A stretch of DNA of 64,000 bases, taken from positions 285,213-349,212 of the forward strand of contig NZ_CP019332.1 in the NCBI RefSeq assembly GCF_002163855.1. Direction: 5' to 3'. The notes beneath the pieces are model-generated. The model ran no database searches. It saw only the letters and a list, made by a program, of their open reading frames with translations, and had not been told where the DNA came from. This DNA is from Winogradskyella sp. PC-19. GTDB lineage: Bacteria > Bacteroidota > Bacteroidia > Flavobacteriales > Flavobacteriaceae. This document shows positions 920-60,113 of the stretch, piece after piece. Each line of letters starts with the position of its first letter. The stretch's first letter is position 1. A program made the position numbers and the translations under genes.

Positions 920-2482
920 TTACTCTGCTTTATCAACTGTAACACGATTATCTCTGTTGGCAACTTCCCAAGCGGTATGAAAAACCAACCTTGTTCTGTT
1001 CTCTAATAAATCATATTCAATTTTATCTGGAGTATCAGTTGGTCTATGATAATCATCATGTGTACCATTAAAATAAAATATTACAGGTATATTATTCTTA
1101 GCAAAATTATAGTGATCAGAACGATAATAATAACGGTTCTTATCATTTTCGTCGTTATAAGTGTAATCTAACTCTACGTTTGTATATTTTTTATTTACTT
1201 CCTCAGAAAGGTTATGTAATTCTGAGCTTAACTTATCACTACCAATTAAATAAACATAGTTTCTGTCACCTTCTTTACGTTTTGGGTCTATACGACCAAT
1301 CATATCTATATTTAAATCAGCTACAGTATTTTCTAGAGGGAAAATAGGATTTATATCCGTATAGTATCGAGAGCCTAAAAGACCTTTTTCTTCACCAGTA
1401 ACGTGCAAGAAAAGTATAGAACGTTTCGGTTGGTGTCCATCTTTTACTGCTTTTTGAAATGCTTCAGCTATTTCTAAAATGGCTACTGTTCCAGAACCAT
1501 CGTCATCCGCACCGTTATAAACTTCACCATCTTTAATACCTTCATGGTCTAAATGTGCAGAAATTACAAGAATTTCATCTGGTTTTTCAGAACCTTTGAT
1601 AAAAGCAACAACATTTTCAGACATCACGTCTTCAGCTTTTCTATCTGCTTTTAAAGATATATTAGTTTTTAAATTCTTTGCCGAACTATCTTCGCTAATT
1701 GAAGAATGTAAAGCTTTGGCCATATCTTTATTAATCATCATAAATGCAAAATCAGAAGCGTTATCATTAAGCGATAATCTTCCTGAGAAACCAGACTCAG
1801 ATTGTCTTTGATAAAATGGTGCGTATCTCGAAAATAATGCATCATCAAAATATAACATGGCTTTAGCACCATTATCTCTCGCTGCATTTCTTTTGCTAGA
1901 TAATGACTGACGGCCATTAGTCCATTTTGTATCTTCTGTATTTCCAGAAGTAATATAATTTCCGCTTGCATCTTTTGGTTCACCTGCTTTTGCTAAAATT
2001 ATTTTTCCTTTAACATCAAGATTCTTATAATCAGAATAGTTTTCAGAATCAATTCCATGACCAACGTATACAATATCAGAGGTATTGATGTCTAAGCTTT
2101 TTGAAAGAGACAAAACTATATGATTTGTAAAGGCATCAAAAGATTTGCCATTGATCGATACCTCTGCTATAGCAACAGCTGGTTTTTGTAAAGGAACTTC
2201 TTGAAAATAATCCTCTCCAGTTAATGGCGTACCAATTCCCATACTTTGGTATTGTTTTTTGAGATATTCAACAGCCATTTTCTGTCCTTTTTCACCAGTA
2301 TTACGACCTTCAAATTCATCAGAAGCATATTTATACAATAATGTCTTTAATTCTTCTTGTGTGATTGTCTTGGCATATTCTGCAGGATTTGCAGAAGCAG
2401 AGGATTTTATGTTACTAGTTTTTCCACCTTTACAAGCTGTAAAAATGAGTAATAAGCATAAAATTGAAATAGATTTTTTCAT
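920..2482 (-). CDS. M28 family zinc peptidase lipoprotein with inserted middle domain
   Basis: Predicted secreted dinuclear-zinc aminopeptidase. The start is the ATG at 2482, because translation from there gives a lipoprotein signal (MKKSISILCLLLIFTAC); a longer reading frame to 2539 would bury it. The protein is 520 aa. Residues 60-300 hold a PA-like inserted segment (for example VYVGHGIDSENYSDY and VKGKIILAKAGEP). The M28 catalytic domain follows: HLDHEG from about residue 310, GADDDGSG, TGEEKGLLGS, NIDMIGR and SDHYNF. It is followed downstream by a convergent tRNA and preceded by a shorter paralog on the same strand. The natural peptide substrate is unknown. Confidence 0.9.
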   Translation of the reverse strand: MKKSISILCLLLIFTACKGGKTSNIKSSASANPAEYAKTITQEELKTLLYKYASDEFEGRNTGEKGQKMAVEYLKKQYQSMGIGTPLTGEDYFQEVPLQKPAVAIAEVSINGKSFDAFTNHIVLSLSKSLDINTSDIVYVGHGIDSENYSDYKNLDVKGKIILAKAGEPKDASGNYITSGNTEDTKWTNGRQSLSSKRNAARDNGAKAMLYFDDALFSRYAPFYQRQSESGFSGRLSLNDNASDFAFMMINKDMAKALHSSISEDSSAKNLKTNISLKADRKAEDVMSENVVAFIKGSEKPDEILVISAHLDHEGIKDGEVYNGADDDGSGTVAILEIAEAFQKAVKDGHQPKRSILFLHVTGEEKGLLGSRYYTDINPIFPLENTVADLNIDMIGRIDPKRKEGDRNYVYLIGSDKLSSELHNLSEEVNKKYTNVELDYTYNDENDKNRYYYRSDHYNFAKNNIPVIFYFNGTHDDYHRPTDTPDKIEYDLLENRTRLVFHTAWEVANRDNRVTVDKAE

Positions 2483-2536
2483 TATTAAAAATATTTTAAT
2501 AAGTTTTGATGTTTGTGTATTCCTTTTAATAGAAAC

Positions 2537-2564
2537 CAAATTTACTAATTATATATTGAACCAA
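2537..2564 (-). promoter_or_regulatory. Likely promoter of the larger M28 peptidase gene
   Basis: On the minus strand TTG (2564-2562), 17 bases, then TAAATTTG (2544-2537). The -10-like box is exact to TAnnTTTG; the spacing is slightly short. It lies about 55 bases before the chosen ATG at 2482. Confidence 0.5.
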
Positions 2565-2596
2565 TTTCGAACAACTAAATAGTTGATGAAATCATC

Positions 2597-3628
2597 TTAA
2601 AGCACCTCTTTACTTAGCGTCTGATTAGTATTTGCTAAATACCAAGCAGTAGCGAATATAAGTTTTGTTCGCTTTGCTAATAAAGGATAAACAATCTTAT
2701 CTGGAGTATCAGTAGGTTTTGTGTAATCTTCATGCTCCCCATTAAAAAAGAATATAACAGGAATGTCCTTGAGTGCAAAATTATAATGGTCAGATCGATT
2801 ATAATATCTGTTTGGGTCGTTTATATCGTTGTACTTATAGTCCAATTCTATATTTGTAAATTCATCATTTGCCTCTCTGACAATAAAATCTAATTCTGTG
2901 CTTATTCTATCTGAACCAATGACATATATATAATCATCGTTTTGGTTATGCCTATTATCTATTCTTCCAATCATATCTATATTTAGATTGGCTATTGTAC
3001 TTTCAATTGGAAAAATAGGGTTATTTGTATAATATCTTGATCCGTGAAGCCCAACTTCTTCTCCAGTAACATGTAAAAAAACGATACTTCTACGTGGACT
3101 TAAACCATCTTTTGAAGCTTTGATAAATGCTTCCGCCATTTCGAATACTGCTGCGGTTCCTGAGCCATTATCATCTGCTCCAGGATATATTTCACCATTA
3201 ACTATTCCTTCATGATCAGAATGTGCAGAGATATAGATATACTCGTTTGGCATTTCACTTCCTTCAATGTAAGCTAAGACATTTTGCGAAGCGTTCAGTT
3301 CCTCGGGTAGCTGATCTTTAGGTACCTTTTGATAGTAGTTTTGATGTGACTCAGGTGACTTTAGACCAATAGATTTATAATAGCTTCTTATATAATCACA
3401 AACTTTATTATGCCCTTCTTCTCCTGTCATTCTTCCAGCATATTTGTCATCTGCTATTTCATAAACAAACTCTTTTAGTTCTTCCTCAGTAATGGTGTTA
3501 AGATAGGTTTGCACCTGAGCTTTATCACTATACTTAATGGAAGCCTTTAAATCTTTTACTTTTTCGCTGTGTCTTTGATTGGAGCATGTACCAACCAAAA
3601 GTAGGAGTGAAGCGACTATAAATCTCAT
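2597..3628 (-). CDS. M28 family zinc peptidase lipoprotein, short paralog
   Basis: 343-aa secreted peptidase with a lipoprotein-type N terminus (LLLVGTC). It carries the same M28 motifs as its neighbour: HSDHEG near residue 136, GADDNGSG, TGEEVGLHGS, NIDMIGR and RSDHYNF. The C-terminal half matches the neighbouring 520-aa protein closely, including the tail around the TPTDTPDKI stretch, while the roughly 180-residue middle insert is absent. The pair therefore looks like a tandem duplication followed by loss (or gain) of the insert. All metal and catalytic residues I can identify are kept, so it is probably active. Substrate unknown. Confidence 0.88.
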   Translation of the reverse strand: MRFIVASLLLLVGTCSNQRHSEKVKDLKASIKYSDKAQVQTYLNTITEEELKEFVYEIADDKYAGRMTGEEGHNKVCDYIRSYYKSIGLKSPESHQNYYQKVPKDQLPEELNASQNVLAYIEGSEMPNEYIYISAHSDHEGIVNGEIYPGADDNGSGTAAVFEMAEAFIKASKDGLSPRRSIVFLHVTGEEVGLHGSRYYTNNPIFPIESTIANLNIDMIGRIDNRHNQNDDYIYVIGSDRISTELDFIVREANDEFTNIELDYKYNDINDPNRYYNRSDHYNFALKDIPVIFFFNGEHEDYTKPTDTPDKIVYPLLAKRTKLIFATAWYLANTNQTLSKEVL

Positions 3629-4985: not shown

Positions 4986-5073
4986 GGAGAAATGGCAGAG
5001 TGGTCGAATGCACCAGTCTTGAAAACTGGCGAGGGTCACACCTCCGGGGGTTCGAATCCCTCTTTCTCCGCCA
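4986..5073 (+). tRNA. tRNA-Ser (anticodon TGA), integration target
   Basis: Acceptor GGAGAAA (4986-4992) pairs with TTTCTCC (5063-5069); discriminator G, and CCA encoded at 5071-5073. Anticodon stem CCAGT/ACTGG with loop CTTGAAA gives TGA. A long variable arm (GCGAGGGTCACACCTCCGGG region) is typical for serine. The last bases form the left copy of the element's direct repeat, so the 3' end is supplied by the integrated element. Confidence 0.96.
5059..5071 (+). repeat. attL: left copy of 13-bp direct repeat
   Basis: CCTCTTTCTCCGC, inside the tRNA-Ser T arm and acceptor stem; identical to 26754-26766. It marks the crossover core of the tyrosine recombinase. Confidence 0.85.
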
Positions 5074-5172: not shown

Positions 5173-5191
5173 GGTGACCTATTAGGTGACC
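5173..5191 (+). repeat. Left 19-bp arm-type repeat (integrase binding site candidate)
   Basis: Two GGTGACC boxes separated by TATTA. The same 19 bases occur at 26675-26693, 60 bases inside the right end. Tyrosine recombinases of integrative elements bind such arm sites near the core; binding here is inferred. Confidence 0.7.
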
Positions 5192-5204
5192 TTTTTTAAA
5201 CCTT

Positions 5205-5221
5205 AATTAGGCCACCTAATT
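5205..5221. repeat. Inverted repeat related to the arm sites
   Basis: AATTAGG-CCA-CCTAATT. Its minus strand reads TTAGGTGGCC, close to the TTAGGTGACC of the arm repeat, so it may be a degenerate site in the opposite direction. Confidence 0.4.
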
Positions 5222-5298
5222 GTTTATAACTGTTTATAAATCAGTACAATATATCAATTAAAAGACCTCGAAATTTTGTAAATTAATGTATAATTAAA

Positions 5299-5305
5299 GG
5301 TCACC
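5299..5305 (-). promoter_or_regulatory. GGTGACC box over the integrase ribosome-binding region
   Basis: GGTCACC on the plus strand (GGTGACC on minus) ends four bases before the integrase ATG. If it is an arm-type site, integrase could repress its own synthesis. Inference from one short match. Confidence 0.35.
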
Positions 5306-5308
5306 AGA

Positions 5309-6559
5309 ATGAACAAAACATTTGGATTATTATTCTACTTAAAAAAGAGTAAAGTAGATGCACAGGGCAAATGCCCTATTTACCTACGTATTACCATAGA
5401 TGGTAAGCGTACAGAGATTAGTACAAAACGTACCATTGAGATTGAGAAATGGAGCGTTGAAGCCAATAAAGCTATTGGAAGAACAGAAAATATACGAGAA
5501 CTAAATGCCTATTTAGATTCACTTACTACAAAAGTATATCAAAGCCAAAGAGACTTAATTCAAGATAACAAGGAGGTTACAACCGAAACCCTTAAAAACA
5601 AGTTTTTAGGTGTTGAGGAAAAACAAAGAACACTCATAACCATCTTTAATAATCACAACAAGCAAGTTGAAAAATTAGTTGGTAGAGAGTTTTCAACAGG
5701 AACTTTAGAACGTTATAAAACAGTATGTAAGCATCTGCAAGAGTTTATGCAACATCAATACAATGTAAGTGATATACCTGTAAACAGAATAGACCACAAG
5801 TATATTACAGATTTTGAGTTCTATTTAAAAACGGTTAGAAACTGCGGACATAACAGTACAATTAAGTATATCAAGAATTTTAAAAAGATTGTACGTATTG
5901 CAATAGCAAACGATTGGATTAAAAAAGACCCATTTCTAAATTATAAAGTCCGTTTAAAAGAAGTGGAACGTCAATTTCTTTCAGAAGAAGAAATACAAAC
6001 AATGCTCGAAAAAGAGTTACACACTAATAGATTAGAGCAAGTAAGAGACATTTTTATATTCTGTTGTTTTACAGGTTTAGCGTATAGCGACGTTAAGAAA
6101 CTATCAAAAGATAATTTGGTATTTGGTATTGATGGAGATAAGTGGATAAAGACAAAGCGTACTAAAACAGATACACGTAGTAACATTCCCCTACTTCCGA
6201 CTGCTTTAGAGATTATAAAGAAATACGAGAACCATCCAGAGGCAGTTACAAAAGATGTATTGCTTCCTGTATTGAGCAATCAAAAGTCTAATGCCTATTT
6301 AAAAGAGATAGCAGATTTGTGTGGTATCAATAAAAACTTAACCACCCATTTAGCTCGTCATACGTTTGCAACTACGGTAACATTGTCTAATGGTGTGCCA
6401 ATGGAATCAGTTAGTAAAATGTTAGGTCATAAATCACTAAAAACAACGCAACACTATGCTAAAATATTGGATAGAAAAGTAAGCGATGATATGGCAATTT
6501 TGAAACAAAAATTTGCTGATAAAAGTAATGTTGATGCTTCCAAAAGAATCGCTAATTAA
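5309..6559 (+). CDS. int: Tyrosine recombinase / integrase of the element
   Basis: 416-aa site-specific recombinase of the Bacteroidota integrative-element type. Residues 1-90 form an arm-binding domain, about 105-205 a SAM-like core-binding domain, and 220-400 the catalytic domain. Catalytic residues seen: HLARHTF (H near 346, R near 349), LGH (near 373) and the nucleophile in HYAKI (Y near 382). The position of the first catalytic arginine reads TGLAYSD, so alanine stands where classical enzymes have arginine, as in the IntDOT group, which also lacks it. The gene sits next to the tRNA-Ser target and reads away from it. It should catalyse integration and excision between the 13-bp repeats. 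Confidence 0.93.
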   Translation: MNKTFGLLFYLKKSKVDAQGKCPIYLRITIDGKRTEISTKRTIEIEKWSVEANKAIGRTENIRELNAYLDSLTTKVYQSQRDLIQDNKEVTTETLKNKFLGVEEKQRTLITIFNNHNKQVEKLVGREFSTGTLERYKTVCKHLQEFMQHQYNVSDIPVNRIDHKYITDFEFYLKTVRNCGHNSTIKYIKNFKKIVRIAIANDWIKKDPFLNYKVRLKEVERQFLSEEEIQTMLEKELHTNRLEQVRDIFIFCCFTGLAYSDVKKLSKDNLVFGIDGDKWIKTKRTKTDTRSNIPLLPTALEIIKKYENHPEAVTKDVLLPVLSNQKSNAYLKEIADLCGINKNLTTHLARHTFATTVTLSNGVPMESVSKMLGHKSLKTTQHYAKILDRKVSDDMAILKQKFADKSNVDASKRIAN

Positions 6560-6733: not shown

Positions 6734-6997
6734 ATGACATTTGAAGTAATTACAAAGGATGATTTAAAGACTCTTAAACAGGAAATCATCACAGAACTGA
6801 AGACAATTTTAGGAAGCCAAACAGAGCAAAAAAAGTGGTTAAAATCAGCAGACGTACGTGAGCTATTAAATATTTCAGCAGGCACGTTGCAGAATTTACG
6901 AATCAACGGAACATTACCTTATACAAAAATGGGTAAAACTATGTACTATGAATATGATGATGTAATCGGAATTTTAATCCAAAACAAAAGTGCATAA
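6734..6997 (+). CDS. Small HTH protein, excisionase-like
   Basis: 87 aa. The N-terminal 35 residues look helical (KDDLKTLKQEIITELKTIL), followed by a winged-helix DNA-binding domain of the HTH_17/MerR-like type: WLKSADVRELLNISAGTLQ, then NLRINGTLPYTKMGKTMYY. Such proteins act as excision directionality factors or regulators in Bacteroidota elements. Its last base is the first base of the downstream gene's ATG (TAATG overlap), so the two are translationally coupled. Role in excision versus replication control is inferred from position beside int. Confidence 0.8.
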   Translation: MTFEVITKDDLKTLKQEIITELKTILGSQTEQKKWLKSADVRELLNISAGTLQNLRINGTLPYTKMGKTMYYEYDDVIGILIQNKSA

Positions 6998-8493
6998 TGA
7001 GAATATACATACCTGAAAACTTGGATATATTCGAGTTAACGCACAATAATCCGCCAAGTTTTAAACCTTATAAGTTAGACAAGCTATGTTATATCCTGCA
7101 TTTAATAAATGCTATTCCATTAATGGATAAGAATATTCAGGGCGAAGATTTTGTGCCTATCAACGCAAAAAAATTGCAGGATAAAATACAGAACTATAAA
7201 AAGTATCTTAACTATTTAGAAAGCGATTTACAAATTATTGAGTCCGATAATCATTATGTGGTTGGAGAAAAATCAAAAGGATTTCGATTTATTGAGAGAT
7301 ACAGAACACCTGTAAAATCAATGCAAGTTGAAGACTTCACTTTTAGAAACAAATTAAAAGCCCATAAAAATCGTAAAATAGAGTCGGTTAAACATCTTGG
7401 CTTTTTAACAAAGTGGTTTAATGATAAACTACGAATTGATTATGATTACATAGATGACTTTTTAGTTCAAGAGCATAATTTAAAAATAAAAGATAAAGCA
7501 CTTTGGGAGTACGACAGAGTAAGAAAAAAATATAAGCATCCAACAAATCAAATGGTACACGCTCAAATGAGCGCACAAAGGTTAAAATGGCAAGATTATA
7601 ATTTGATGTTGGATGATAATGTATATCGCTTTCATACCAATTTGACCAATATGCCAAGTCGAATTAGAAATGCTGTTACGTATGATGGCCAAAAATTAAT
7701 TTCGTTAGATATTAAAAACAGTCAACCCTATTTAAGTACTATTTTGTTGAGTCGTGATTTTTGGATAGTGCAAAAATTTGAGCGAAATAAGAATAACTCA
7801 TTGTCGATTGCTTTTGATGAACCGCAGAGTCGCTATTTTTCTTATCTTAAAAAAATAAATAAGGTTTTCAATGAAATAAAGAGTGATACATTAAATATTT
7901 CACATATAAATATTCATAACAATGATTCTTACATTATGTTAGGAGAAATCCCCCAATCCCTTATAAATAATGAGTTTCAAGACTATATTGATTTAGTAGT
8001 ATCTGGAAAGTTATATGAGTTTTTAGAGGATGCCTTTTTACAGGAATTAGGTATTGAATTAAAAGACCGCAAAGAAGTTAAAGCAGCAGTTTTTCAAGTG
8101 TTGTTTACATCCAACCAATTTAAGGGGCAAGCAGAAGCAGCACCCAAAAGGTTATTTGAGCAAAAGTTTAAAGCGGTGTATGATGTATTTGCTAAAATAA
8201 AAAGTAAGGACAAATCTTTACTTCCAAGATTATTACAGAGCATAGAGAGTCATTTAATGATTAACATCATAGCAAAGCGTGTTTCAGAAGAATATCCATT
8301 AGCACCTATATACACTATTCACGATAGCATATCTACTACTGAAGAATATGTAGAAGTAGTTGAGCAGATTATGATGGAAGAGTTAACCAAGGCTATTGGT
8401 CATCCACCAACAATAAAACAAGAGGTATGGTGTAAAAGCAATATGGTAAAGCATCTTGAAACTTTAAAGGAGAAAGCAAAGGTTGTCGCTTAA
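6997..8493 (+). CDS. Divergent stand-alone family-A polymerase-like protein, candidate replication protein
   Basis: 498 aa, not a family I can name. The C-terminal two thirds carry a series resembling DNA polymerase I or single-subunit RNA polymerase. NLTNMPSRIRNAV precedes motif A (LISLDIKNSQPYL, D238), mirroring the NLQNIP...RIRQAF...ADYSQIE region of PolI. A fingers helix follows with R358, K362, F366 and F370 in the exact R-x3-K-x3-F-x3-Y/F spacing, and motif C is IHDSI (H442, D443). No 5' or 3' exonuclease domain is present; the first 220 residues are unrecognised. It overlaps the HTH gene by one base. Inferred role: copying the element or priming after excision. A catalytically inactive relative is possible. 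Confidence 0.62.
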   Translation: MRIYIPENLDIFELTHNNPPSFKPYKLDKLCYILHLINAIPLMDKNIQGEDFVPINAKKLQDKIQNYKKYLNYLESDLQIIESDNHYVVGEKSKGFRFIERYRTPVKSMQVEDFTFRNKLKAHKNRKIESVKHLGFLTKWFNDKLRIDYDYIDDFLVQEHNLKIKDKALWEYDRVRKKYKHPTNQMVHAQMSAQRLKWQDYNLMLDDNVYRFHTNLTNMPSRIRNAVTYDGQKLISLDIKNSQPYLSTILLSRDFWIVQKFERNKNNSLSIAFDEPQSRYFSYLKKINKVFNEIKSDTLNISHINIHNNDSYIMLGEIPQSLINNEFQDYIDLVVSGKLYEFLEDAFLQELGIELKDRKEVKAAVFQVLFTSNQFKGQAEAAPKRLFEQKFKAVYDVFAKIKSKDKSLLPRLLQSIESHLMINIIAKRVSEEYPLAPIYTIHDSISTTEEYVEVVEQIMMEELTKAIGHPPTIKQEVWCKSNMVKHLETLKEKAKVVA

Positions 8494-8501
8494 ATAAAAT
8501 A

Positions 8502-8538
8502 ATTGCACAACCATTGCATTATTAAATTTTTATCTTTG
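8502..8538 (+). promoter_or_regulatory. Promoter/operator with paired ATTGCA boxes
   Basis: ATTGCA at 8502-8507 and 8513-8518, 11 bases apart, followed by TATCTTTG (8531-8538). The layout is repeated at 11516-11553. Candidate binding site of the Fur-family regulator encoded at 11100. Confidence 0.5.
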
Positions 8539-8543
8539 TGACT

Positions 8544-8861
8544 GTGAAATTTGTAACAGTCATATTATCATTAATAATACTATTGCTTTCAGCAAAGTCT
8601 TGTTCTGATGGTCAAAACATAGAAGACCAGCATCAAGACGAGATAAGTGTTAATCACAACCACCAAGGAGATAGTGACGATTCTTGTCCTGTAACTTGTA
8701 TTTGTAATTGTTGCGGTATGACAATTACTTACGAACCCATCAAGACATTTGATTTAAAACTTAATATTGAAATCTCAACGGATTTAATTTCTACATATCA
8801 ACCTATTTACGGGTTTAATTTCCTTTCCAATATTTGGCATCCGCCACAAGTAATCAGCTAA
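8544..8861 (+). CDS. Cys-rich exported protein, DUF6660-like
   Basis: About 105 aa. A hydrophobic N terminus (VKFVTVILSLIILLLSAKSC) is followed by an acidic/His segment (NHNHQGDSDDSC) and a cysteine cluster CPVTCICNCCGM, all suited to binding soft metals outside the cytoplasm. No ATG is available before the signal peptide. GTG at 8544 gives the best start, with GTG at 8538 the alternative; the -7-like box ends at 8538, so the message could be nearly leaderless. Small proteins like this often sit beside metal-efflux genes in Flavobacteriia. The exact family name is from memory and moderately sure. Confidence 0.6.
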   Translation: MKFVTVILSLIILLLSAKSCSDGQNIEDQHQDEISVNHNHQGDSDDSCPVTCICNCCGMTITYEPIKTFDLKLNIEISTDLISTYQPIYGFNFLSNIWHPPQVIS

Positions 8862-8910
8862 AACAAATCGATTTTAAATCAATTATTTAGTTAATTACAA
8901 ATACAATTCA

Positions 8911-11097
8911 ATGAATAAATACCTATTGAGCATAAAGCTCATATTAATACTTTGCCTATCGTTACAGGCACAAACATCAGACATACAAATAAAAGTCCTA
9001 ACAGAAGCTGAAAACGAGCCTTTATTGGGTGCTACGGTTTATTTTGAAGCATTAGAAAAAGGAGCAGTAACCGATTTTGATGGTATTGCAGAATTTACAG
9101 AAATACCAGACGGTCAGCATCAAATAATAATTTCCTTTTTAGGCTTTGAAGCATTTGAGACAACAATTCAAATTCCAAGTAATACAGCGTTAGTCTTTAA
9201 ATTAAAAGAAGGTGGCAATCAATTAGATGCTGTAGTATTGCAATCTACAAGAAGTACGAGAACCGTAAGAAAAATACCGACACGTATCGAGTTTATCGGT
9301 GCAGAGGAATTAGGAGAAAAAGCAATAATGAACCCTACTAATATTTCTATGGTGCTTCGTGAAAGTACAGGAATACAGATGCAACAAACATCATTAAGTA
9401 GTGGGAGTACCAATATTCGTATTCAAGGATTGGATGGTAGATACACACAGCTTTTAAGAGATGGGTTTCCATTATATGGTGGTTTTTCAAGTGGATTAAG
9501 TATTTTACAAATACCACCTTTAGACTTACAACAATTTGAGATTATTAAAGGAAGTTCATCAACACTTTACGGTGGAGGTGCTATTGCAGGATTAGTAAAT
9601 ATGGTATCTAAAACACCAGACGAAGAACCTGCATTAGACATAATGCTCACGCAGACACAAGCATTAGGAAGTACAGCCAATGTGTTTTATAGCAAACGAA
9701 ATGAAAAATTCGGTGTTTCACTTTACGGCTCTGGTCACTATCAAAAAGCGTATGACCCAGAAGATGATGGTTTTAGTAATTTACCAAAAACGACATCAAT
9801 TTCATTTAATCCTAAATTGTTTTATTATCCATCAGATAAAACAACACTTTGGTTTGGATTAAACGGAACGTATGATGATAGAATTGGCGGAGATATTACC
9901 AAAATTGAAAATGGTGAAGATGGTATTCATCAATACACAGAAGAGAACAATTCAAAACGATTAAGCAGTCAATTGGTATATCAAACTCAATTAGATTCTA
10001 TAAGTTCATTAGAATTTAAAAATAGTGTCTCTTTTTTCGATAGAAATTTAACAGTTCCTGATTTTAATTTTGATGGCAAACAAACAAATACTTTTACTGA
10101 AATCACATATAATACAGCATCAGAAAAAACGGATTGGATAGTTGGAGCTAATCTATATACCTCAAATTTCGATGAAAATGATAACGCACCATTACAGCGA
10201 GACCAAAAAGATGTAACCTTTGGAGCATTTGCAAATAATATCTTCGACATATCAGATAATTGGATATTAGAAACAGGATTAAGAGCAGATTATAATACGG
10301 ATTTCGGTTTCTTTCCACTTCCAAGAATTTCATTACTCTACAAAAATGATAGTGGATTTTCAAGTAGAATTGGTGGAGGTTTAGGGTATAAGATTCCAGA
10401 TATTTTTACAGAGGAAGCCGAATATATCAATTTTGAAAATGTGCTTGCTATAGATAAATCAACAGTAGATGCAGAACGTTCATATGGTGTTAATTTCGAT
10501 GTAAACTATCAAACACGGTTATCTGATGAGATTGGTTTTTCTATAAACCAATTATTTTATGTGACTGCAATAAATGATGGTCTACTTTTAAATTCTACTG
10601 ATAACGGTTTATTTCAGTTTGAAAATGCACCAGATGAAATCTTTAGCAAAGGAGCAGAAACCAATATAAAATTTACTTACAAAGACTTTAGATGGTTTTT
10701 AAACTATGCGCTTATTGATACCAAACTAAATTATTTACCTGGTAATCCGCAGAAGCCATTAACCGCAAAACATAACGCAGGTAGTGTTTTGATGTACGAA
10801 TCTGAAAAATGGCGAATTGGTTATGAAACCTTTTATACAGGCAAACAGTTTTTATCTAATGGAACAGAGACTACAGACTTTGTAACTATGGGCTTATTGG
10901 TGATGCGTAACTTTAAATTAGGAAGTGTATTTGTGAATTTTGAGAATTTTACAGATAGAAGACAAAGCAGGTTTTCACCTTTAGTTTTACCACCACACGA
11001 CAATCCTGTTTTTCCAGAGATTTATGCACCTACAGATGGTTTTATATTTAGTGTAGGACTTATTATTAAACCATTTGGAAACGAAGACGACGATTAA
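8911..11097 (+). CDS. TonB-dependent outer-membrane receptor
   Basis: 728 aa. Signal peptide (1-20), a carboxypeptidase-like regulatory domain (about 24-105, with LGATVYFEALEKGAVTDFDG), a plug domain (about 115-230, IRIQGLDGRYTQLLRDGFP and LYGGGAIAGLVNMVSK), then a 22-strand-type barrel to the C terminus. Such receptors import chelated metals, vitamins or peptides using TonB energy. It lies three bases before a Fur-family regulator and inside a metal-resistance block, which points to a metal complex as ligand. Zinc, copper and iron cannot be told apart from sequence. The C-terminal end is acidic (GNEDDD), an unusual finish for a barrel. Confidence 0.92.
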   Translation: MNKYLLSIKLILILCLSLQAQTSDIQIKVLTEAENEPLLGATVYFEALEKGAVTDFDGIAEFTEIPDGQHQIIISFLGFEAFETTIQIPSNTALVFKLKEGGNQLDAVVLQSTRSTRTVRKIPTRIEFIGAEELGEKAIMNPTNISMVLRESTGIQMQQTSLSSGSTNIRIQGLDGRYTQLLRDGFPLYGGFSSGLSILQIPPLDLQQFEIIKGSSSTLYGGGAIAGLVNMVSKTPDEEPALDIMLTQTQALGSTANVFYSKRNEKFGVSLYGSGHYQKAYDPEDDGFSNLPKTTSISFNPKLFYYPSDKTTLWFGLNGTYDDRIGGDITKIENGEDGIHQYTEENNSKRLSSQLVYQTQLDSISSLEFKNSVSFFDRNLTVPDFNFDGKQTNTFTEITYNTASEKTDWIVGANLYTSNFDENDNAPLQRDQKDVTFGAFANNIFDISDNWILETGLRADYNTDFGFFPLPRISLLYKNDSGFSSRIGGGLGYKIPDIFTEEAEYINFENVLAIDKSTVDAERSYGVNFDVNYQTRLSDEIGFSINQLFYVTAINDGLLLNSTDNGLFQFENAPDEIFSKGAETNIKFTYKDFRWFLNYALIDTKLNYLPGNPQKPLTAKHNAGSVLMYESEKWRIGYETFYTGKQFLSNGTETTDFVTMGLLVMRNFKLGSVFVNFENFTDRRQSRFSPLVLPPHDNPVFPEIYAPTDGFIFSVGLIIKPFGNEDDD

Positions 11098-11099
11098 AT

Positions 11100-11513
11100 A
11101 TGGAAACAATAGAACAAGTATTAGAGTCAAAAAATATTCGTGTTACAGCAATGCGTATGTTAATTTATAAGTTTCTTGCAGAAAAAGAGATAGCGGTAAC
11201 ATTAAGTGATATTGAAAGTGCTTTTGAAAAAGCAGATAGAACTACCTTGTACAGAACTATTAAAACTTTTGAAGAAAAGGATATTGTGCATCAAATAGAC
11301 GATGGCACAGGAATTACGAAATATGCATTATGCGAAGAGGGATGTAATTGTGATATAAAAACCGATTTACACCTACACTTCCATTGTAACAATTGCAATG
11401 AAACCATTTGCCTAACAGAACATAAAATACCGCAAATTAAAGTACCTGATGGTTTTGTGTCAGAGAATGTAAATTTGGTGGTAAAAGGTATTTGCGATAA
11501 GTGTAGTGGCTAA
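11100..11513 (+). CDS. Fur-family transcriptional regulator
   Basis: 137-aa winged-helix repressor of the Fur/Zur group. DNA-binding helices occupy about 1-75 (KADRTTLYRTIKTFEEKDIV). The metal-sensing half has a histidine-rich segment HLHFHCNNC and a C-terminal CDKC pair, which together make the usual structural zinc site. It follows the TonB receptor by three bases, so the receptor and its likely regulator are co-transcribed. Paired ATTGCA motifs lie upstream of the unit and again right after this gene, and are the natural candidate operators. Metal specificity (Zn, Fe or other) is not resolved. Confidence 0.9.
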   Translation: METIEQVLESKNIRVTAMRMLIYKFLAEKEIAVTLSDIESAFEKADRTTLYRTIKTFEEKDIVHQIDDGTGITKYALCEEGCNCDIKTDLHLHFHCNNCNETICLTEHKIPQIKVPDGFVSENVNLVVKGICDKCSG

Positions 11514-11515
11514 TA

Positions 11516-11553
11516 ATTGCACTTCCATTGCACTTACTATTAAAGTACATTTA
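11516..11553 (+). promoter_or_regulatory. Second promoter/operator with paired ATTGCA boxes
   Basis: ATTGCA at 11516-11521 and 11527-11532, again 11 bases apart, then a -7-like TACATTTA (11546-11553). It shares 15 of 17 positions with 8502-8518 and lies just before the DUF3703-merTP-ATPase unit. Confidence 0.5.
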
Positions 11554-11569
11554 TCCAAAATTAGTGGAT

Positions 11570-11932
11570 ATGAAGTTTAATACTAAAATACCTAAACATC
11601 TTAAACAGGCGTATAACGAAGAATTAAAACTATACAGTTTCTGTTTAGAAAATAAGCATTTTGGCAATGCTTGGTATCATTTAGAACGCAGTCATATCAT
11701 AGGGCAATCTTATCCAATAGAACATACCTATTCACATTGGTTAATGCTAAAATTTGGATTTAGACAAAAAGATACTAAAGAAGTAATAGGTCAAATAGTT
11801 AGGTTGTTTGTGGGTGGCTGGAAATCATTTATAAATCACGTTCCACTTGGTAATACAGGTGGAGCAAACGTGCCACCATTAAAACGGATGCCTATTCCCA
11901 ATGACATTGAAAAATTATTAGATATAGAATGA
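11570..11932 (+). CDS. DUF3703 domain-containing protein
   Basis: 120 aa from the ATG at 11570; an upstream in-frame extension would overlap the promoter. The segment AWYHLERSHIIGQSYPIEH followed by THSHWLMLKFGFRQKD-like residues is the histidine-rich core of DUF3703, a family met beside heavy-metal resistance genes; here the residues read TYSHWLMLKFGF. No signal peptide, one possible amphipathic segment (IGQIVRLFVGGWKSF). Biochemical role unknown. Its stop overlaps the start of merTP by four bases, so the two are coupled. Confidence 0.8.
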   Translation: MKFNTKIPKHLKQAYNEELKLYSFCLENKHFGNAWYHLERSHIIGQSYPIEHTYSHWLMLKFGFRQKDTKEVIGQIVRLFVGGWKSFINHVPLGNTGGANVPPLKRMPIPNDIEKLLDIE

Positions 11933-12522
11933 AAAATAAATTAGCGGTTACAAGTATCCTAACAGCAATCACAGCTTCATTGTGTTGCATCACACCTGTT
12001 TTGGCATTAATTGCAGGAACAAGTGGTGTAGCTTCAACTTTTTCTTGGATAGAACCATTTAGACCTTACTTAATAGGGCTAACTATATTAGTTCTTCTCT
12101 TTGCTTGGTATCAAAAATTAAAACCAGAAAAAGAAATCGACTGTGAATGTGAAACGGATAAAGAACCAAAATTTATGCAGTCAAAAACCTTTTTAGGCAT
12201 TGTAACAGCTTTTGCAATTGTGATGTTGGCTTTCCCATACTACTCAAGTATGTTATATCCAAAAACCGAAAAACAAATCATAATAGTTGATAAATCAAAT
12301 ATAAAAACAATAGAGTATAAAATAAGTGGAATGACTTGTGCCAGTTGTGAAGCACACGTTAACCACGAAGTAAATAAACTTAACGGAATTGTAAACTCAA
12401 AAACATCATACGAAAATGGTAACGCAATCATTGAGTTTGACGAAACTAAAACCAATGAATTGGAGATTGAGAAAGCAATTAACGCAACAGGTTATAAAGT
12501 AACTAACAAAAAAGAAAATTAA
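11929..12522 (+). CDS. merTP: MerT-MerP fusion metal transporter (MerTP)
   Basis: 197 aa. Membrane part (1-115) has three hydrophobic segments with the MerT cysteine pair in ITASLCCITPV (C19, C20) and a cytosolic loop ECETDKEP. A C-terminal HMA domain (about 128-195) carries GMTCASC. MerT/MerP carry Hg(II) inward in classical operons; Bacteroidota often encode them fused. No mercuric reductase is found in this window, so the metal may be passed to the P1B ATPase downstream instead of being reduced. It overlaps neighbours on both sides (four bases and one base). Confidence 0.88.
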   Translation: MKNKLAVTSILTAITASLCCITPVLALIAGTSGVASTFSWIEPFRPYLIGLTILVLLFAWYQKLKPEKEIDCECETDKEPKFMQSKTFLGIVTAFAIVMLAFPYYSSMLYPKTEKQIIIVDKSNIKTIEYKISGMTCASCEAHVNHEVNKLNGIVNSKTSYENGNAIIEFDETKTNELEIEKAINATGYKVTNKKEN

Positions 12523-12728
12523 TGAAAACCATATTAAAATCGGAAATCACTTGCCCTAACTGCGGACATAAAAAAGTAGAAGATATGCCAACAAATGCTT
12601 GTCAATTCTTCTACGAGTGTGAGCATTGTAAAACGGTTCTAAAACCAAACGAAGGTGATTGTTGTGTGTATTGTTCTTATGGAACAGTTCCCTGTCCACC
12701 AATTCAAGAAAATAAAAGTTGTTGTTAA
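12522..12728 (+). CDS. GDCCVxC domain small protein
   Basis: 68 aa, with a first CPNCGHKK zinc-ribbon half, then YECEHCKTVLKP and the signature GDCCVYCSYGTVPCPP, ending in CC. Twelve or so cysteines make it a small metal-binding protein, probably cytosolic as no signal peptide is seen. It is translationally coupled to merTP and lies ten bases before the P1B ATPase, suggesting a metallochaperone or sponge role for that pump. Function is inferred. Confidence 0.85.
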   Translation: MKTILKSEITCPNCGHKKVEDMPTNACQFFYECEHCKTVLKPNEGDCCVYCSYGTVPCPPIQENKSCC

Positions 12729-12738
12729 AACTAACTTG

Positions 12739-14691
12739 ATGAAAAAAAAGAAAGTCAATTTAAGAGATTTAAAACCAAATTCAGAAGAACAACATTCTCA
12801 CGATGATGGTCACGACCACGGAAATGGAAGTGCATTCAAAACATACATTCCAGCACTTATAAGTTTTGTGATGCTAATCGTAGGAATTGCTGTAGATTAT
12901 TTTGATGCCATTCCTCAATTTGAAGGATGGATTCGAGTAGTTTGGTACACTTTAGCATATATTCCAGTTGGGTTTCCTGTAATTAAAGAAGGATGGAAAA
13001 GTCTTATAAAAGGCGATGTTTTTACCGAGTTCTTTTTAATGTCTATTGCCACCATTGGTGCGTTTATCATTGGTGAATATCCTGAAGGTGTGGCAGTAAT
13101 GCTATTTTATGCAGTAGGAGAATTATTTCAAAACGCAGCAGTTAATAGAGCAAAAGGAAATATTAAAGCCTTATTAGATGTTAGGCCAAAAGAAGCCAAT
13201 GTATTTCGTGATGGTGATTATATAAGTGTATCGCCCGAAGCTGTAAATATTGGCGAGAAAATACAAATTCGAGTAGGTGAAAAAATTCCATTGGATGGTA
13301 TTTTATTATCCGAAAAAGCATCTCTAAACACCGCAGCATTAACAGGAGAAAGCAAACCAGATTCTATTCAGAAAGATGCAAAGGTTTATGCAGGTAGTAT
13401 TAATTTAGAAAGCGTTATTGAAGTTGAGGTAACCAACATCTTTGAAGATAGTTCTATTGCGAGAATATTAGACTTGGTTCAAAATGCAACAGCTCGTAAG
13501 TCTAAAACAGAATTGTTTATCAGACAGTTTGCTCGTATCTACACACCAATTGTAGTGTTTTTAGCTATTGGTGTTACTTTTATACCTTACTTTTTTGTAG
13601 ATGATTATGTATTTAGAGATTGGTTATACAGAGCATTAATTTTCTTGGTAATATCTTGTCCTTGTGCGTTAGTGATTTCAATACCATTAGGTTATTTCGG
13701 TGGTTTGGGAGCAGCTTCAAAAAATGGAATTTTATTTAAAGGTGCTTCATTTTTAGATGCAATGACCAAGATAAATACTTTGGTAATGGACAAAACAGGA
13801 ACCGTTACCAAAGGTGTTTTTAAAATCAAAGAAGTAAAAGCAATCGGTTGGAAAGAAACCGAATTTATGCAATACTTAATGGCGATGGAAGAACAATCCA
13901 CGCATCCAATTGCTAAAGCCATTTTAGAGTACAAAGCTGAAGGAGAAGATTTTGAAGCACAAGACGTTTCTGAAATTGCAGGTAAAGGTTTAAAAGGCGT
14001 TGTTAATGGTAAAACTGTTTTAGTAGGTAACAAAGCCTTGATGACTACCAATAGTATTGATATTCCAAGTGAAACGGAAACTATTGTAGAATCTATAGTA
14101 TTAGTTGCAATCGATAATCAATTTGCAGGTTATGTAGTCATAGCAGATGAATTAAAAGAGGATGCAAAAGAAACTATTACAGAATTACACAAAGTAGGCA
14201 TTAAAAATATTATGATGCTTTCCGGTGATAAAGATTCCATTACGCAACAAGTCGCTAAAGAGTTGAATATCGAAAATGCTAAAGGTGGTTTACTACCAGA
14301 AGATAAATTAAACGAAGTTGAAATTTTAAAGAAAAATCCTGAAAACAAAATAGCCTTTATAGGTGATGGTATTAACGATGCACCAGTTTTAGCAGCGAGT
14401 AACGTTGGTATTGCAATGGGTGGTTTAGGTAGTGATGTAGCTATTGAAACAGCAGACGTTATAATTCAAACAGACCAGCCTTCAAAAGTAGTTAGAGCCA
14501 TTAAAATAAGTCGTTCTACAAGAAAAATTGTTTGGCAGAATATCATTTTAGCGTTTGGAGTTAAAGTTATTGTATTGATATTAGGAGCAGGTGGTTTAGC
14601 CACAATGTGGGAAGCAGTTTTTGCAGATGTAGGAGTAGCATTATTAGCAATTTTAAATGCAGTTAGATTACAACGAATGAGTTGGGATTAA
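12739..14691 (+). CDS. Heavy-metal translocating P1B-type ATPase (ZntA/CadA-like)
   Basis: 650 aa from the ATG at 12739. Residues 10-35 are His/Asp-rich (HSHDDGHDHG) in place of an N-terminal HMA domain. The ion path motif is CPC (C307, C309), the phosphorylated residue is D351 in DKTGT, and GDGINDAP marks the hinge. In the last membrane segment the D of FADVG and K of FGVKVIV match the P1B-2 group that exports Zn, Cd and Pb. With the metal supplied by MerTP or cytosolic leakage, it would pump ions to the periplasm. Direction and group are by family knowledge; the exact metal is not proven. Confidence 0.93.
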   Translation: MKKKKVNLRDLKPNSEEQHSHDDGHDHGNGSAFKTYIPALISFVMLIVGIAVDYFDAIPQFEGWIRVVWYTLAYIPVGFPVIKEGWKSLIKGDVFTEFFLMSIATIGAFIIGEYPEGVAVMLFYAVGELFQNAAVNRAKGNIKALLDVRPKEANVFRDGDYISVSPEAVNIGEKIQIRVGEKIPLDGILLSEKASLNTAALTGESKPDSIQKDAKVYAGSINLESVIEVEVTNIFEDSSIARILDLVQNATARKSKTELFIRQFARIYTPIVVFLAIGVTFIPYFFVDDYVFRDWLYRALIFLVISCPCALVISIPLGYFGGLGAASKNGILFKGASFLDAMTKINTLVMDKTGTVTKGVFKIKEVKAIGWKETEFMQYLMAMEEQSTHPIAKAILEYKAEGEDFEAQDVSEIAGKGLKGVVNGKTVLVGNKALMTTNSIDIPSETETIVESIVLVAIDNQFAGYVVIADELKEDAKETITELHKVGIKNIMMLSGDKDSITQQVAKELNIENAKGGLLPEDKLNEVEILKKNPENKIAFIGDGINDAPVLAASNVGIAMGGLGSDVAIETADVIIQTDQPSKVVRAIKISRSTRKIVWQNIILAFGVKVIVLILGAGGLATMWEAVFADVGVALLAILNAVRLQRMSWD

Positions 14692-14762
14692 GCAGATTAT
14701 TCAATTAAACTTCTGTTAAACAAAATCAATAGTTGTTAAAATTTCGTAACTTCGCAATCAAT

Positions 14763-15176
14763 ATGAAGCAGTTTTTCCATAAAATAATGTCTTTAGCAAT
14801 GGCTTTTGTAGTGTTATGCTCTACAATGTCATTTACTGTGAATATGCATTATTGTGGAGATACTTTAGTAGAAACTGCTATCTTTCAAAAAGCCAAAGGG
14901 TGCGGAATGGAAATGGAAAAGCCTTCAACCGAAGGATGTTCTATTACCAAAAAAAATTGTTGTGATGATGAACAATTAGCAATTGAAGGTCAAGACGAAT
15001 TACAATTGCAAGTTGACAAAATCTCATTTGAGCAACAGGTATTCATCGCTTCATTTGTTTATACTTTTATTAACCTTTTTGAAGGTTTAGACAATAATGT
15101 ATCTACTTACGAAGAATATAAACCGCCACTCGTCGTCAGGCAACTCTACAAGATTGACGAGACATACTTAATTTGA
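14763..15176 (+). CDS. HYC_CC_PP family exported protein
   Basis: 137 aa from the ATG at 14763 (MKQFFHKIMSLAMAF). A signal peptide is followed by the three marks of the family: MHYCGD, NCCDD and YKPPLV. Two further cysteines (GCGMEMEKPSTEGC) add to the metal-binding potential. Found in Bacteroidota next to CusABC-type efflux operons, as here 110 bases before cusA. A -7-like TAACTTCG (14747-14754) precedes it, so it may begin the transcript of the efflux operon. Molecular role unknown. Confidence 0.82.
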   Translation: MKQFFHKIMSLAMAFVVLCSTMSFTVNMHYCGDTLVETAIFQKAKGCGMEMEKPSTEGCSITKKNCCDDEQLAIEGQDELQLQVDKISFEQQVFIASFVYTFINLFEGLDNNVSTYEEYKPPLVVRQLYKIDETYLI

Positions 15177-15196
15177 TTTTTAAACAATAGACTCTT

Positions 15197-15256
15197 TTAT
15201 CCTATGACTGCAATGTCGTAAGGATAATTTGCTGTATTCGGTGTTTTTCAAACACC
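15197..15256 (+). promoter_or_regulatory. Two hairpins in the leader of the efflux operon
   Basis: First hairpin 15197-15227 (TTATCCTATGAC / GTCGTAAGGATAA, one bulge, TGCAAT loop). Second hairpin 15240-15256 (GGTGTTT-TTC-AAACACC) without a T run. They lie between the HYC gene and cusA, so could stabilise or attenuate the message. Structure is by eye only. Confidence 0.4.
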
Positions 15257-15285
15257 AATGTCTAATTGTTTAATTATCAAAGCCA

Positions 15286-18200
15286 ATGCTAAATAAAAGC
15301 ATCAAATTTTTAATAGAAAATAAACTCGTAGCAGTTTTATTATTAGTTCTCTTTATAGGTTGGGGAACAGTCAACGCACCTTTCAATTGGGATACAGGAT
15401 TCTTACCAAGCAATCCTGTTGCTGTAGATGCCATACCAGATATAGGTGAAAATCAACAAATCGTTTTTACCAAATGGGATGGTCGCTCACCACAAGATAT
15501 AGAAGACCAAATAACGTATCCATTAACCACATCCTTGTTAGGGATTCCTGGAGTAAAAACCATTCGTAGTTCCTCTATGTTCGGCTTTTCAAGTATCTAT
15601 ATCATTTTTGAAGAAGACATAGAATTTTACTGGAGTAGAAGTCGTATTCTCGAAAAACTTAATTCCTTACCAAGTGGTTTATTACCCGAAGGTGTTAATC
15701 CTGCATTGGGTCCAGATGCCACAGGATTAGGACAAATATTTTGGTACACGCTTGAAGGTCGTGATGAAAACGGTAATGTAACTGGTGGTTGGGATTTACA
15801 GGAATTACGAAGTATTCAGGATTACTATGTAAAGTATGCGTTGTCCTCTGCAAGTGGTGTTTCAGAGGTTGCTTCTATTGGTGGCTATGTTCAAGAATAT
15901 CAAGTGGATGTAAATCCAGAACTAATGCGTCAATATAATATTGGATTGCATCACGTTGTAAAAGCGGTTAAGGAAAGCAATAAAGATATTGGTGCACAAA
16001 CTTTGGAAATTAACCAAGCCGAATATTTAGTGCGTGGTTTGGGTTATGTAAAATCCATTGCAGACATCGAAAATGCAGTCGTCACTTCAGAAGACTATAC
16101 AGCAATAAAAATCAAAGATATTGGAAAAGTCTCTTTAGGTCCTGCAACTCGACGTGGATTATTAGATAAAGAAGGTGCTGAAGTTGTTGGTGCTGTTGTT
16201 GTGGCTCGTTATGGTGCAAACCCGATGGAAGTAATCAATAACGTAAAGGAAAAAATTAATGAATTAAGTGCAGGATTACCTTCAAAAGTATTAGCGGATG
16301 GTAGAACGTCCCAAGTAACCATAATCCCTTTTTATGATAGAACTGAACTGATACAAGAAACTTTAGGTACACTCAATGAGGCATTGACTTTAGAAATTCT
16401 AATAACCATTCTGGTCATAATCATTATGGTGTTTAATCTTCGAGCTTCAGTACTAATTTCTGGACTACTGCCAGTAGCAGTTTTAATGGTATTTATAGCG
16501 ATGAAACTCTTTGGTGTCGATGCCAATATAGTTGCCCTATCAGGTATTGCTATTGCCATTGGTACTATGGTCGATGTTGGTGTCATACTATCAGAAAATA
16601 TCATTCGACATTTAGATGAAGATGATGGCACACAATCCATTAATACGGTAGTTTACAATGCTACAGCCGAAGTTTCTGGTGCAATTGTAACCGCAGTAAT
16701 GACCACAATTATCAGTTTCATTCCTGTATTTACGATGATTGGAGCAGAAGGAAAACTGTTTAGACCATTAGCATTCACAAAAACTTTTGCATTAACAGCA
16801 TCCATTATTGTAGCGTTATTTTTGATTCCACCGTTTGCTGCATTCTTATTCCGAAAGAAAAACATTAAAAACACTTTTAAATATGTTTTAAATGGTGTTT
16901 TAATAGCGTTAGGTATCGCTGCAATTATCTATGGGTATTGGTTAGGTTTGATATTAATAGCTTTTGGAATTACAGCACTTCTCAACCATCAAAATAAGAT
17001 AACGGACAAACAAGCTAACCTTATTAATATTATTATTTCAGCATCAGCAATCGTATTCTTGTTAGCTGAATATTGGAGACCATTAGGCGTTGATAAAAGC
17101 ATTTTCTGGAACCTCATTTTTGTTAGTGTTATTTGCTTTGGTTTATTGGGTGTTTTCTCATTATTCATCAAATATTACACACGCATTTTAAGGTGGTGTT
17201 TAGATAATAAGCTACTCTTTTTGTCTGCCCCAACAGCAATTGTAATTGCAGGTTTTTTCATTATGAAAAACACAGGTAAAGAGTTTATGCCATCATTAAA
17301 TGAAGGCTCATTTCTACTAATGCCAACCTCGATGCCTCATTCTGGAGTAGAAGAAAACAAAAGGGTTTTACAGCAACTAGATATGGCAGTAGCAAGTATT
17401 CCAGAGATTGAAACAGTAGTTGGTAAAGCAGGTCGTACAGAATCAGCTTTAGACCCAGCACCATTATCAATGTATGAAAATATTATTCAGTACAAACCAG
17501 AATATATGCTGAATGAAAACGGAGTACGCCAACGTTACAAAGTAAATGATGATGGCTTATTTGAGTTGAAAAATGGGCGTTTGGTTTCTAATCCTAATAA
17601 TTCCGAAAACGTCATTTTTAGCACTATAAAAAGGTCTCAATTAATTGAAGATGATGATGGCGAGTACTATCGTAACTGGCGACCAGAAATTGAATCACCA
17701 GACGATATTTGGAATGAAATCGTAAGAGTTACAAAATTACCAGGTGTTACATCTGCACCAAAATTACAGCCTATTGAAACTCGATTAGTAATGCTGCAAA
17801 CAGGAATGCGAGCACCAATGGGTATCAAGGTAAAAGGTCAAGATTTAAAACAAATTGAAGCGTTTGGTGTGCAGTTAGAGGATATTTTGAAACAAGCTGA
17901 AGGTGTAAAAGATGAAGCTGTTTTTGCAGACCGTATCGTAGGGAAACCCTATTTGTTAATTGATATTGATAGAGAAAAAATTGCACGTTATGGTATTTCA
18001 ATACAAGATGTACAAGATGTACTTAAAGTTGCAGTTGGCGGAATGGTATTAACCCAAACCGTTGAAGGTAGAGAGCGTTATGGTGTACGTGTTCGATACC
18101 CAAGAGAGTTAAGAGCTAATCCAACCGACTTAAAACAGATTTATGTACCAGTAGAAAAAGGCAGTCCAGTTCCTTTAAGCGAATTGGCAACAATAAAATA

Positions 18201-18993: not shown

Positions 18994-20225
18994 AACACAT
19001 AAAATCACACATAAAAACAGTCTTTTTTCTTTGTTCGTTATTCTTTGTTCTCAAAGGAAATGCACAACAATTAGAAGTACTCATAGATGAAGCCTTAACA
19101 AACAATCCAGAAATTCAAAAGTTTGAGTTACAATACAAAAGAGCTTCTGAAAAAGTGAATGAAGTCAATACCATTCCGAACACCGAATTTGGAGTTGGTT
19201 ACTTTGTAAGTGAACCGGAAACCAGAACAGGTGCACAACGCTTTAAAGTATCTGCTAAACAAATGTTACCGTGGTTCGGAACCATTACATCGAGAGAAAA
19301 TTATGTGAGTTCATTGGCAGATGCTAAATACGAGGACATTGTTATCGCAAAGCGAAAACTAATGGCTTCGGTATCACAATCCTATTATAATCTATACGCG
19401 AACAAAGCAAAGCAAGAGGTCTTAACTGAAAACATTAAACTATTAGAAACTTATGAGACGTTGGCATTAACTTCTGTTGAGGTTGGTAAAGCATCCGCAG
19501 TAGATGTGTTGCGATTGCAAATGCGTCAAAACGAAATGCAACAATTAAAAGATGTATTGCAACAACAATTTTTAGCAGAACAAACCAAATTCAATAATCT
19601 ATTGAATAGAGATAATGATGTTACCGTGAATGTGGTAGATAGTGTAATGATACCTTCTGAAGACTTTGATATTACTTCTGAAAATTTAGCATTACATCCT
19701 GAATTACTAAAATATGATAAGCTCTATCAATCCATAGAGCAATCAGAATTATTAAATCAAAAAGAAAGCAGTCCAATGATTGGTTTTGGATTAGATTATA
19801 TCAATGTTTCAGAAAGGCCAAATATGGATTTCAGCGATAACGGAAAGGATATTGTAATGCCAATGGTTTCGGTGTCAATCCCAATCTTCAATAAGAAATA
19901 TAAATCCCAAACCAAACAAAACGAGTTAGAACAGCAAGAAATAACAGTTCAAAAGCAGGAACGATTAAACACTTTGGAAACACTTTTAAGCAAGGCGATT
20001 AATGAGCGTATTTCTGCAAGAATAAGTTATACTACTCAAACTAAAAACCTAAAACAAGCAAAAGATGCAGAAGATATTTTAATCAAAAGCTATGAAACAG
20101 GAACGATTGATTTTAATGATGTTTTAGACATTCAAGAGTTACAGCTAAAGTTTCAAATGAACCAAATAGAATCTGTGAAGACCTACTTTGTACAAACTAC
20201 TATAATTAATTATTTAACTAATTAA
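18990..20225 (+). CDS. TolC-family outer-membrane efflux protein (CusC-like)
   Basis: 411 aa with signal peptide (VFFLCSLFFVLKGNAQQ). Long heptad-rich helices typical of the TolC tunnel are seen at about 55-190 and 260-390 (LLETYETLALTSVEVGKASA; DAEDILIKSYETGTIDFND). It forms the outer-membrane exit duct for the CusA-CusB pump. Its ATG overlaps the end of cusA, and the next gene starts three bases after its stop, so expression is coupled. Assignment rests on helix pattern and operon position. Confidence 0.88.
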   Translation: MKHIKSHIKTVFFLCSLFFVLKGNAQQLEVLIDEALTNNPEIQKFELQYKRASEKVNEVNTIPNTEFGVGYFVSEPETRTGAQRFKVSAKQMLPWFGTITSRENYVSSLADAKYEDIVIAKRKLMASVSQSYYNLYANKAKQEVLTENIKLLETYETLALTSVEVGKASAVDVLRLQMRQNEMQQLKDVLQQQFLAEQTKFNNLLNRDNDVTVNVVDSVMIPSEDFDITSENLALHPELLKYDKLYQSIEQSELLNQKESSPMIGFGLDYINVSERPNMDFSDNGKDIVMPMVSVSIPIFNKKYKSQTKQNELEQQEITVQKQERLNTLETLLSKAINERISARISYTTQTKNLKQAKDAEDILIKSYETGTIDFNDVLDIQELQLKFQMNQIESVKTYFVQTTIINYLTN

Positions 20226-20228
20226 ACT

Positions 20229-21682: not shown

Positions 21683-21688
21683 ATTGTT

Positions 21689-22396: not shown

Positions 22397-22400
22397 AGAA

Positions 22401-24173: not shown

Positions 24174-24193
24174 TAACAATTAAATTTTAAACA

Positions 24194-26753: not shown

Positions 26754-26766
26754 CCTCTTTCTCCGC
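26754..26766 (+). repeat. attR: right copy of 13-bp direct repeat
   Basis: CCTCTTTCTCCGC, identical to 5059-5071. It is the displaced 3' tip of the original tRNA-Ser gene; nothing tRNA-like lies upstream of it. Confidence 0.85.
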
Positions 26767-60110: not shown

Positions 60111-60113
60111 TAA

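Follow-up and report, generated by a model that had tools for sequence, protein, structure and literature searches.

A divergent, exonuclease-less family-A polymerase on a tRNA-Ser-integrated element of Winogradskyella is a member of a sparsely studied polymerase branch found in phages and mobile elements

The window analysed here, a stretch of 64,000 nucleotides from Winogradskyella sp. PC-19 (contig NZ_CP019332.1, positions 285,213 to 349,212), carries a tRNA-Ser-integrated element of approximately 21.7 kb. Within this element, a plus-strand gene at positions 6997-8493 encodes an exonuclease-less family-A polymerase of 498 amino acids. The tRNA-Ser (TGA) gene identified by ARAGORN (4986-5073, plus strand) is the insertion site, and its 3' end forms the left attachment site. 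The attL core of 13 nucleotides within this end (5059-5071) recurs identically at 26754-26766 (attR). We are aware that a match of this length is by itself unremarkable (E 0.11). The same element is present in two further genomes, G001 and G005; DNA homology to these copies (97-98% and 86-91%, respectively) ends at 26766 in each case, and the size of the element was deduced from this shared end together with the repeat at both ends. The stretch from attL to the integrase gene contains copies of GGTGACC in either orientation (5173-5305), which are candidate arm-type integrase sites. The tyrosine recombinase (integrase; 5309-6559, plus strand) possesses arm, SAM-like and catalytic domains (Pfam PF17293, PF13102, PF00589). 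It is followed by a small HTH_17/excisionase-like helix-turn-helix (HTH) protein of 87 amino acids (6734-6997, plus strand; PF12728, E 3.8e-7), whose stop codon overlaps the polymerase start by one base (junction TAATG). Iterons were sought near the polymerase gene and two-copy repeats only were obtained. Among the genes of the element, 13 of which were scanned against Pfam and the remainder read by eye, we recognised neither a helicase nor a relaxase nor any other gene for replication.

An earlier note, made from the letters of the window, had proposed that an integrative element carries a divergent family-A polymerase lacking an exonuclease, and this assignment is supported by the fold comparison, the structural model and the element ends. 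The model consists of an N-terminal winged-helix domain (approximately residues 1-125; 6997-7371, plus strand) followed by a family-A polymerase domain (approximately residues 123-482). The palm-fingers fold of the Pol I/T7 RNA polymerase type, which the earlier note had expected, was found in the model, with long helices (149-165 and 182-197) coming before the hairpin along the chain. A nuclease domain was absent from the model, and no nuclease family was matched in the library scans.

For the catalytic residues we used an alignment of 67 sequences (A2), consisting of the window protein and 66 loci; the latter remained of 105 after clustering (75% identity) and application of a 330-amino-acid length limit. 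The genome and viral scans behind it used one or two motif patterns, and relatives without those motifs were missed. R211, D238, Y340, K362, E417, H442 and D443 were invariant (67/67). On the plus strand, the hairpin (R211, R224), motif A (D238) and the fingers (R358/K362) are encoded at 7627-8082 and motif C (H442-D443-S444) at 8320-8328. The motif A aspartate, the fingers helix and the His-Asp pair of motif C, all named in the earlier note, were thereby confirmed, and both catalytic aspartates are kept in every relative aligned. Further positions were less strict, with Gln at 243 in 65/67, Phe at 370 in 60/67 and Tyr in 7/67, Arg at 358 in 48/67, Lys in 16/67 and other residues in 3/67, and the motif C serine (S444) in 64/67. 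With both aspartates and the fingers lysine kept, catalytic activity is predicted. A DNA-binding regulator or Rep protein whose polymerase fold is no longer catalytic would fit the N-terminal winged helix, but is highly improbable with these three residues invariant from Bacteroidota elements through huge phages.

By its position after motif A, Q243 stands at what we take to be the site of the ribonucleotide-excluding glutamate of Pol I, and for this reason the choice of sugar is not predictable. T7 RNA polymerase has Tyr639 where the window protein has F370, and such a change from tyrosine to phenylalanine blurs sugar choice. A single-subunit RNA polymerase that transcribes the element genes or makes RNA primers is nevertheless unlikely: 48 of the 50 rows of the fold comparison were DNA polymerases (tied within approximately 2 Z), Q243 is still bulky, and residue 370 is mostly Phe instead of the tyrosine. 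In the covered parts of their paper, Yutin et al. considered an RNA polymerase role for the phage polymerase group divPolA2 (PMC11348598).

Using standard libraries, the window protein matched no family above the cut-off in Pfam, PHROGs and NCBIfam, and did not match PF00476 (DNA_pol_A) at E up to 1. Nine other members matched no Pfam family, and 65/67 members had no PHROG match, with the other two matching, at E 0.001, a PHROG without assigned function. A profile search of the PDB gave no match. A plain hidden Markov model search with A2 against MAP_030, E. coli Pol I, T7 DNA polymerase and T7 RNA polymerase was significant for none of them (best 2.7 bits). Several weak matches were rejected. 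Ribosomal uS8 (E 0.71), the lone match of the PDB sequence search, is at chance level. T4 RegB (E 0.014), tryptophan halogenase (E 0.24), phrog_1323 (E 0.029) and further weak Pfam, PHROG and NCBIfam matches up to 0.35 were below cut-off and conflict with the model.

Relatives were found in 7 of 99 genomes related to G001 and in 15 of 395 Bacteroidota genomes. The species-genome scan gave 25 loci out of 35 pattern matches, with Psychroserpens, Algibacter, Lutibacter, Polaribacter, Chryseobacterium, Empedobacter, Pedobacter and Hymenobacter among the carriers. The viral-contig scan yielded 155 of 194 matches, of which 80 were kept; many of these contigs were 100-600 kb long, and some may be misclassified chromosome. 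Scanning viral contigs with a single protein confirmed none of 7 matches. Purifying selection acts on the polymerase gene between genera, with a dN/dS of 0.06-0.16 in 12 of 15 pairs and no synonymous change in the other three (Nei-Gojobori script). An ordinary PolA was also carried by 6/6 genomes with relatives. Two Bacteroidota genomes held relatives at four separate places (G170) and at two (G479), which suggests several such elements per genome. The Winogradskyella copy in L023 (9965-11483) carries a frameshift towards the 3' end of the polymerase gene, leaving a frame of 395 amino acids and a match length that is not a multiple of three.

Mobile-element polymerases of this kind were already known, a fact missed by the earlier note. 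TV-Pol was described in 2008 by Iyer, Abhiman and Aravind from mobile elements of Bacteroidetes and other bacteria and was predicted to have primase and polymerase activity (PMC2579912); the related phage group is divPolA2 (PMC11348598, in the parts covered). Like TV-Pol, which is 400-600 amino acids long, the window family shows a hairpin arginine (R211), two palm aspartates (D238 and D443) and RxxxK fingers (K362), each of these four residues in 67/67, and no nuclease. Likewise, TV-Pol resides on mobile elements with an integrase or resolvase, and Bacteroidetes are among its lineages (PMC2579912). TV-Pol is further marked by a thumb built from two antiparallel helices, to which helices 149-165 and 182-197 of the window protein may correspond, and by a conserved aspartate in its fingers. 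From the neighbours that define it (a D5 helicase or an integrase, resolvase or transposase) the window holds an integrase, and unlike TV-Pol no helicase was recognised near the window polymerase.

In order to compare both groups by profile, six TV-type rows were used: MAP_030, Calothrix, two Polaromonas, G333 and G336. MAP_030 of Microcystis phage LMM01 was equated with the TV-Pol of the paper by reasoning of our own, and the other five rows were gathered by similarity starting there. Aligning A2 to these rows with hhalign gave 95.7% (E 1e-8, score 71.9), and 30 column shuffles scored at most 18.6 (at most 0.3%). The alignment spans 300 columns and reaches into the N-terminal domain; the R, D, K, LQ-x-x-E and HD positions are matched to each other. 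Dropping MAP_030, the second Polaromonas row or G336 left the match at 93.1-95.4%, while dropping Calothrix, the first Polaromonas row or G333 reduced it to 18.7, 20.6 and 28.4%, with scores of 34.7-37.0 still above the shuffles. The profile link to TV-Pol is thus fragile and dependent on three reference rows. Common to A2 and all six rows are motif A in the form D-[ILV]-x-x-[SCA]-[QH] and the glutamate in LQ-x-x-E, which to our knowledge Pol I lacks. Motif C differs, being HDS in the window protein and HDG or YDG in five of the six TV rows. Small Calothrix and Polaromonas plasmids of 7-14 kb (L178, L179, L222) carry a TV-Pol-type gene with a resolvase-type recombinase, and both Polaromonas plasmids also carry an annotated RepA.

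According to the covered parts of Yutin et al. (2024), divPolA2 is an exonuclease-less polymerase with an N-terminal domain of unknown kind from phages of Rheinheimera, Vibrio, Aeromonas, Shewanella and others (PMC11348598). The exonuclease-less family-A palm, the N-terminal globular domain, the variable gene neighbourhood and another DNA polymerase alongside are shared with the window family, as far as those parts go (PMC11348598). Aligning A2 with seven divPolA2 sequences gave 97.6% (hhalign, E 3.8e-12, score 96.8; no more than 20.2 in 20 shuffles), with the match extending across palm, fingers and motif C; a single divPolA2 sequence against A2 reached 3.0%, and the divPolA2 and TV sets matched each other at 11.3%. 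The 7 divPolA2 and the 67 A2 rows were split by a branch at 100/100 in a 74-row tree (midpoint root, several long branches). The window family lies outside the divPolA2 clade and is a separate branch, occurring, unlike divPolA2, in Bacteroidota integrative elements, plasmids and other huge phages. Chromosome/plasmid and viral rows stood largely apart in the tree (4 label changes versus a shuffled mean of 21.3). The covered parts of the divPolA2 source make no link to TV-Pol or integrative elements (PMC11348598), and within the library and terms used for our literature search, no paper among those listed linked the two groups or described this Bacteroidota cassette. As candidate kin, divPolA1 was rejected, matching PolA at 96.3% and A2 at 0.4%. 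Bacterial DNA polymerase I shares the polymerase fold, in contrast to the missing DNA_pol_A (PF00476) match and the 8-15% of A2 against the Pol I profile.

For the gene neighbourhoods, 43 loci were collapsed at 90% identity to 36, excluding fragment L006 and the short loci L001-L008. In 19/36 an HTH gene preceded the polymerase gene by one or two positions on its strand, and in 14/36 a co-directional tyrosine integrase gene lay among the five genes before it (16/36 counting any tyrosine integrase within five genes). A serine recombinase was found near the polymerase in 1/36, using a model built from one seed. Either recombinase occurred within five genes in 17/36, and HTH or recombinase in 23/36. 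In L014, L015, L020, L023, L024 and L025 the integrase is preceded by the same tRNA-Ser as in the window, and in L026 by a tRNA-Ser (CGA). Insertions into this gene order were also seen. In Polaribacter (L024, 8904-9971) a protein of 356 amino acids, by eye resembling a winged-helix replication protein or regulator, lies between HTH and polymerase genes, and one extra, varied open reading frame of approximately 160-500 amino acids separates integrase and HTH genes in L030, L033, L035, L038, L042 and L017 (Weeksellaceae and others).

Maintenance of the element as a plasmid, also proposed in the earlier note, was weakened by two observations. The sole complete plasmid found with a relative (Hymenobacter, NZ_CP060788), which had first suggested a plasmid Rep role, encodes an annotated replication initiation protein and a ParA of its own, and that role was rejected. 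Moreover, 12/12 huge-phage records with relatives also match another DNA polymerase family: two records have both DNA_pol_A and PolC, and the remaining 10 have PolB. These matches were above family cut-off, often partial, and the records may be fragments. DnaG_N was matched in 1/12. The second observation also favours an accessory DNA polymerase that extends primers in gap filling or repair, with replication started by the host. Such a role would agree with the exonuclease-less family-A fold and with CcPol, a family-A polymerase of SCC elements that on its own merely extends primers, according to the covered parts of PMC10061031. We regard it as rather unlikely, since it leaves the placement behind integrase and HTH genes and the attached DNA-binding domain unexplained, and the genes of the element that were scanned or read included no further one recognisable as a replication gene.

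A PF00476 match adjoins the divergent polymerase gene in two huge-phage records (L010, approximately 5773-6429, and record W01, 393932-394588; record G494, 59441-60175). In W01 it lies downstream within approximately 620 bases, and the two polymerases may form a pair there. Ten representative neighbouring genes from huge phages included no replication gene; they were SAM-lyase- or methyltransferase-like proteins, glycosyltransferase, peptidase and tail sheath, with at least five lacking a named family. Genes of a single sequence cluster (e.g., L054, 6612-7181) occurred in 37/84 viral loci and immediately followed the polymerase gene in 35 places; one representative weakly resembles S-adenosylmethionine lyase (E 7.7e-5, below cut-off).

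Downstream of the window polymerase follows a metal cargo region (8538-24634, plus strand; open reading frames, eight genes scanned with Pfam, others outside that scan) with a DUF6660 protein, a TonB receptor, a FUR-type regulator, a MerT/HMA protein, a P-type ATPase, an RND pump, an HMA/MauE protein and a CusB-type adaptor with a heavy-metal-binding domain. Towards the right end lie genes for a protein of 249 amino acids (25499-26248, minus strand) and an open reading frame of 62 amino acids (26458-26646, plus strand), both without Pfam match at E 0.001. Cargo varies among relatives; the gene after the Polaribacter polymerase resembles, by eye, a type I modification subunit. Outside the element, two adjoining, similar peptidase-like genes were seen by eye at 920-3628 on the minus strand.

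Phage-inducible islands and P4-like satellites carry int, an AlpA-type HTH gene and a primase gene. The window element resembles them in its tRNA insertion and in the order integrase, HTH, replication gene and cargo, and differs in using a family-A polymerase with winged helix instead of a DnaG- or archaeo-eukaryotic primase (AEP)-type primase-helicase. The CcPol-MP system is likewise a family-A polymerase on an integrative element; CcPol primes with its partner, and an OB-fold partner and a helicase are encoded in the same operon, as given in the covered parts of PMC7581432 and PMC10061031. Neither was recognised among the scanned or read neighbours in the window, where OB folds were not searched by structure.

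The proposal of the earlier note that the polymerase replicates or primes the excised element is plausible. We consider the chances slightly better than even that the gene encodes the replication-start enzyme of the tRNA-Ser-integrated element. HTH and polymerase genes would be expressed together, and integrase and HTH protein would release the element in circular form. The winged helix would bind a site on this circle, where the polymerase domain would make or extend a primer as a prim-pol, as CcPol, itself a TV-Pol, does with its partner. Host helicase and replicase would complete the copy. Higher copy number, protection from loss while excised and favoured transfer would be the outcome. More tentatively, and with considerable doubt, the single chain may combine an initiator-type winged helix with an exonuclease-less family-A prim-pol, recognising the origin and laying the first primer without a helicase or partner of its own, and the same branch may serve as an extra priming polymerase in huge phages. 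If true, this would be a single-chain replication start for mobile DNA, besides DnaG-/AEP-type enzymes and the two-protein CcPol-MP.

Overall, the window polymerase falls into a branch of phage and mobile-element enzymes that has received little study, and it probably starts the copying of its element. This branch of Bacteroidota elements, plasmids and huge phages has no name in the libraries searched and connects two separately published groups, TV-Pol and divPolA2. In Flavobacteriia, it defines a recurrent chassis of integrase, HTH protein and polymerase with differing cargo, and it offers small members without an adjacent helicase for testing the proposed primase function.
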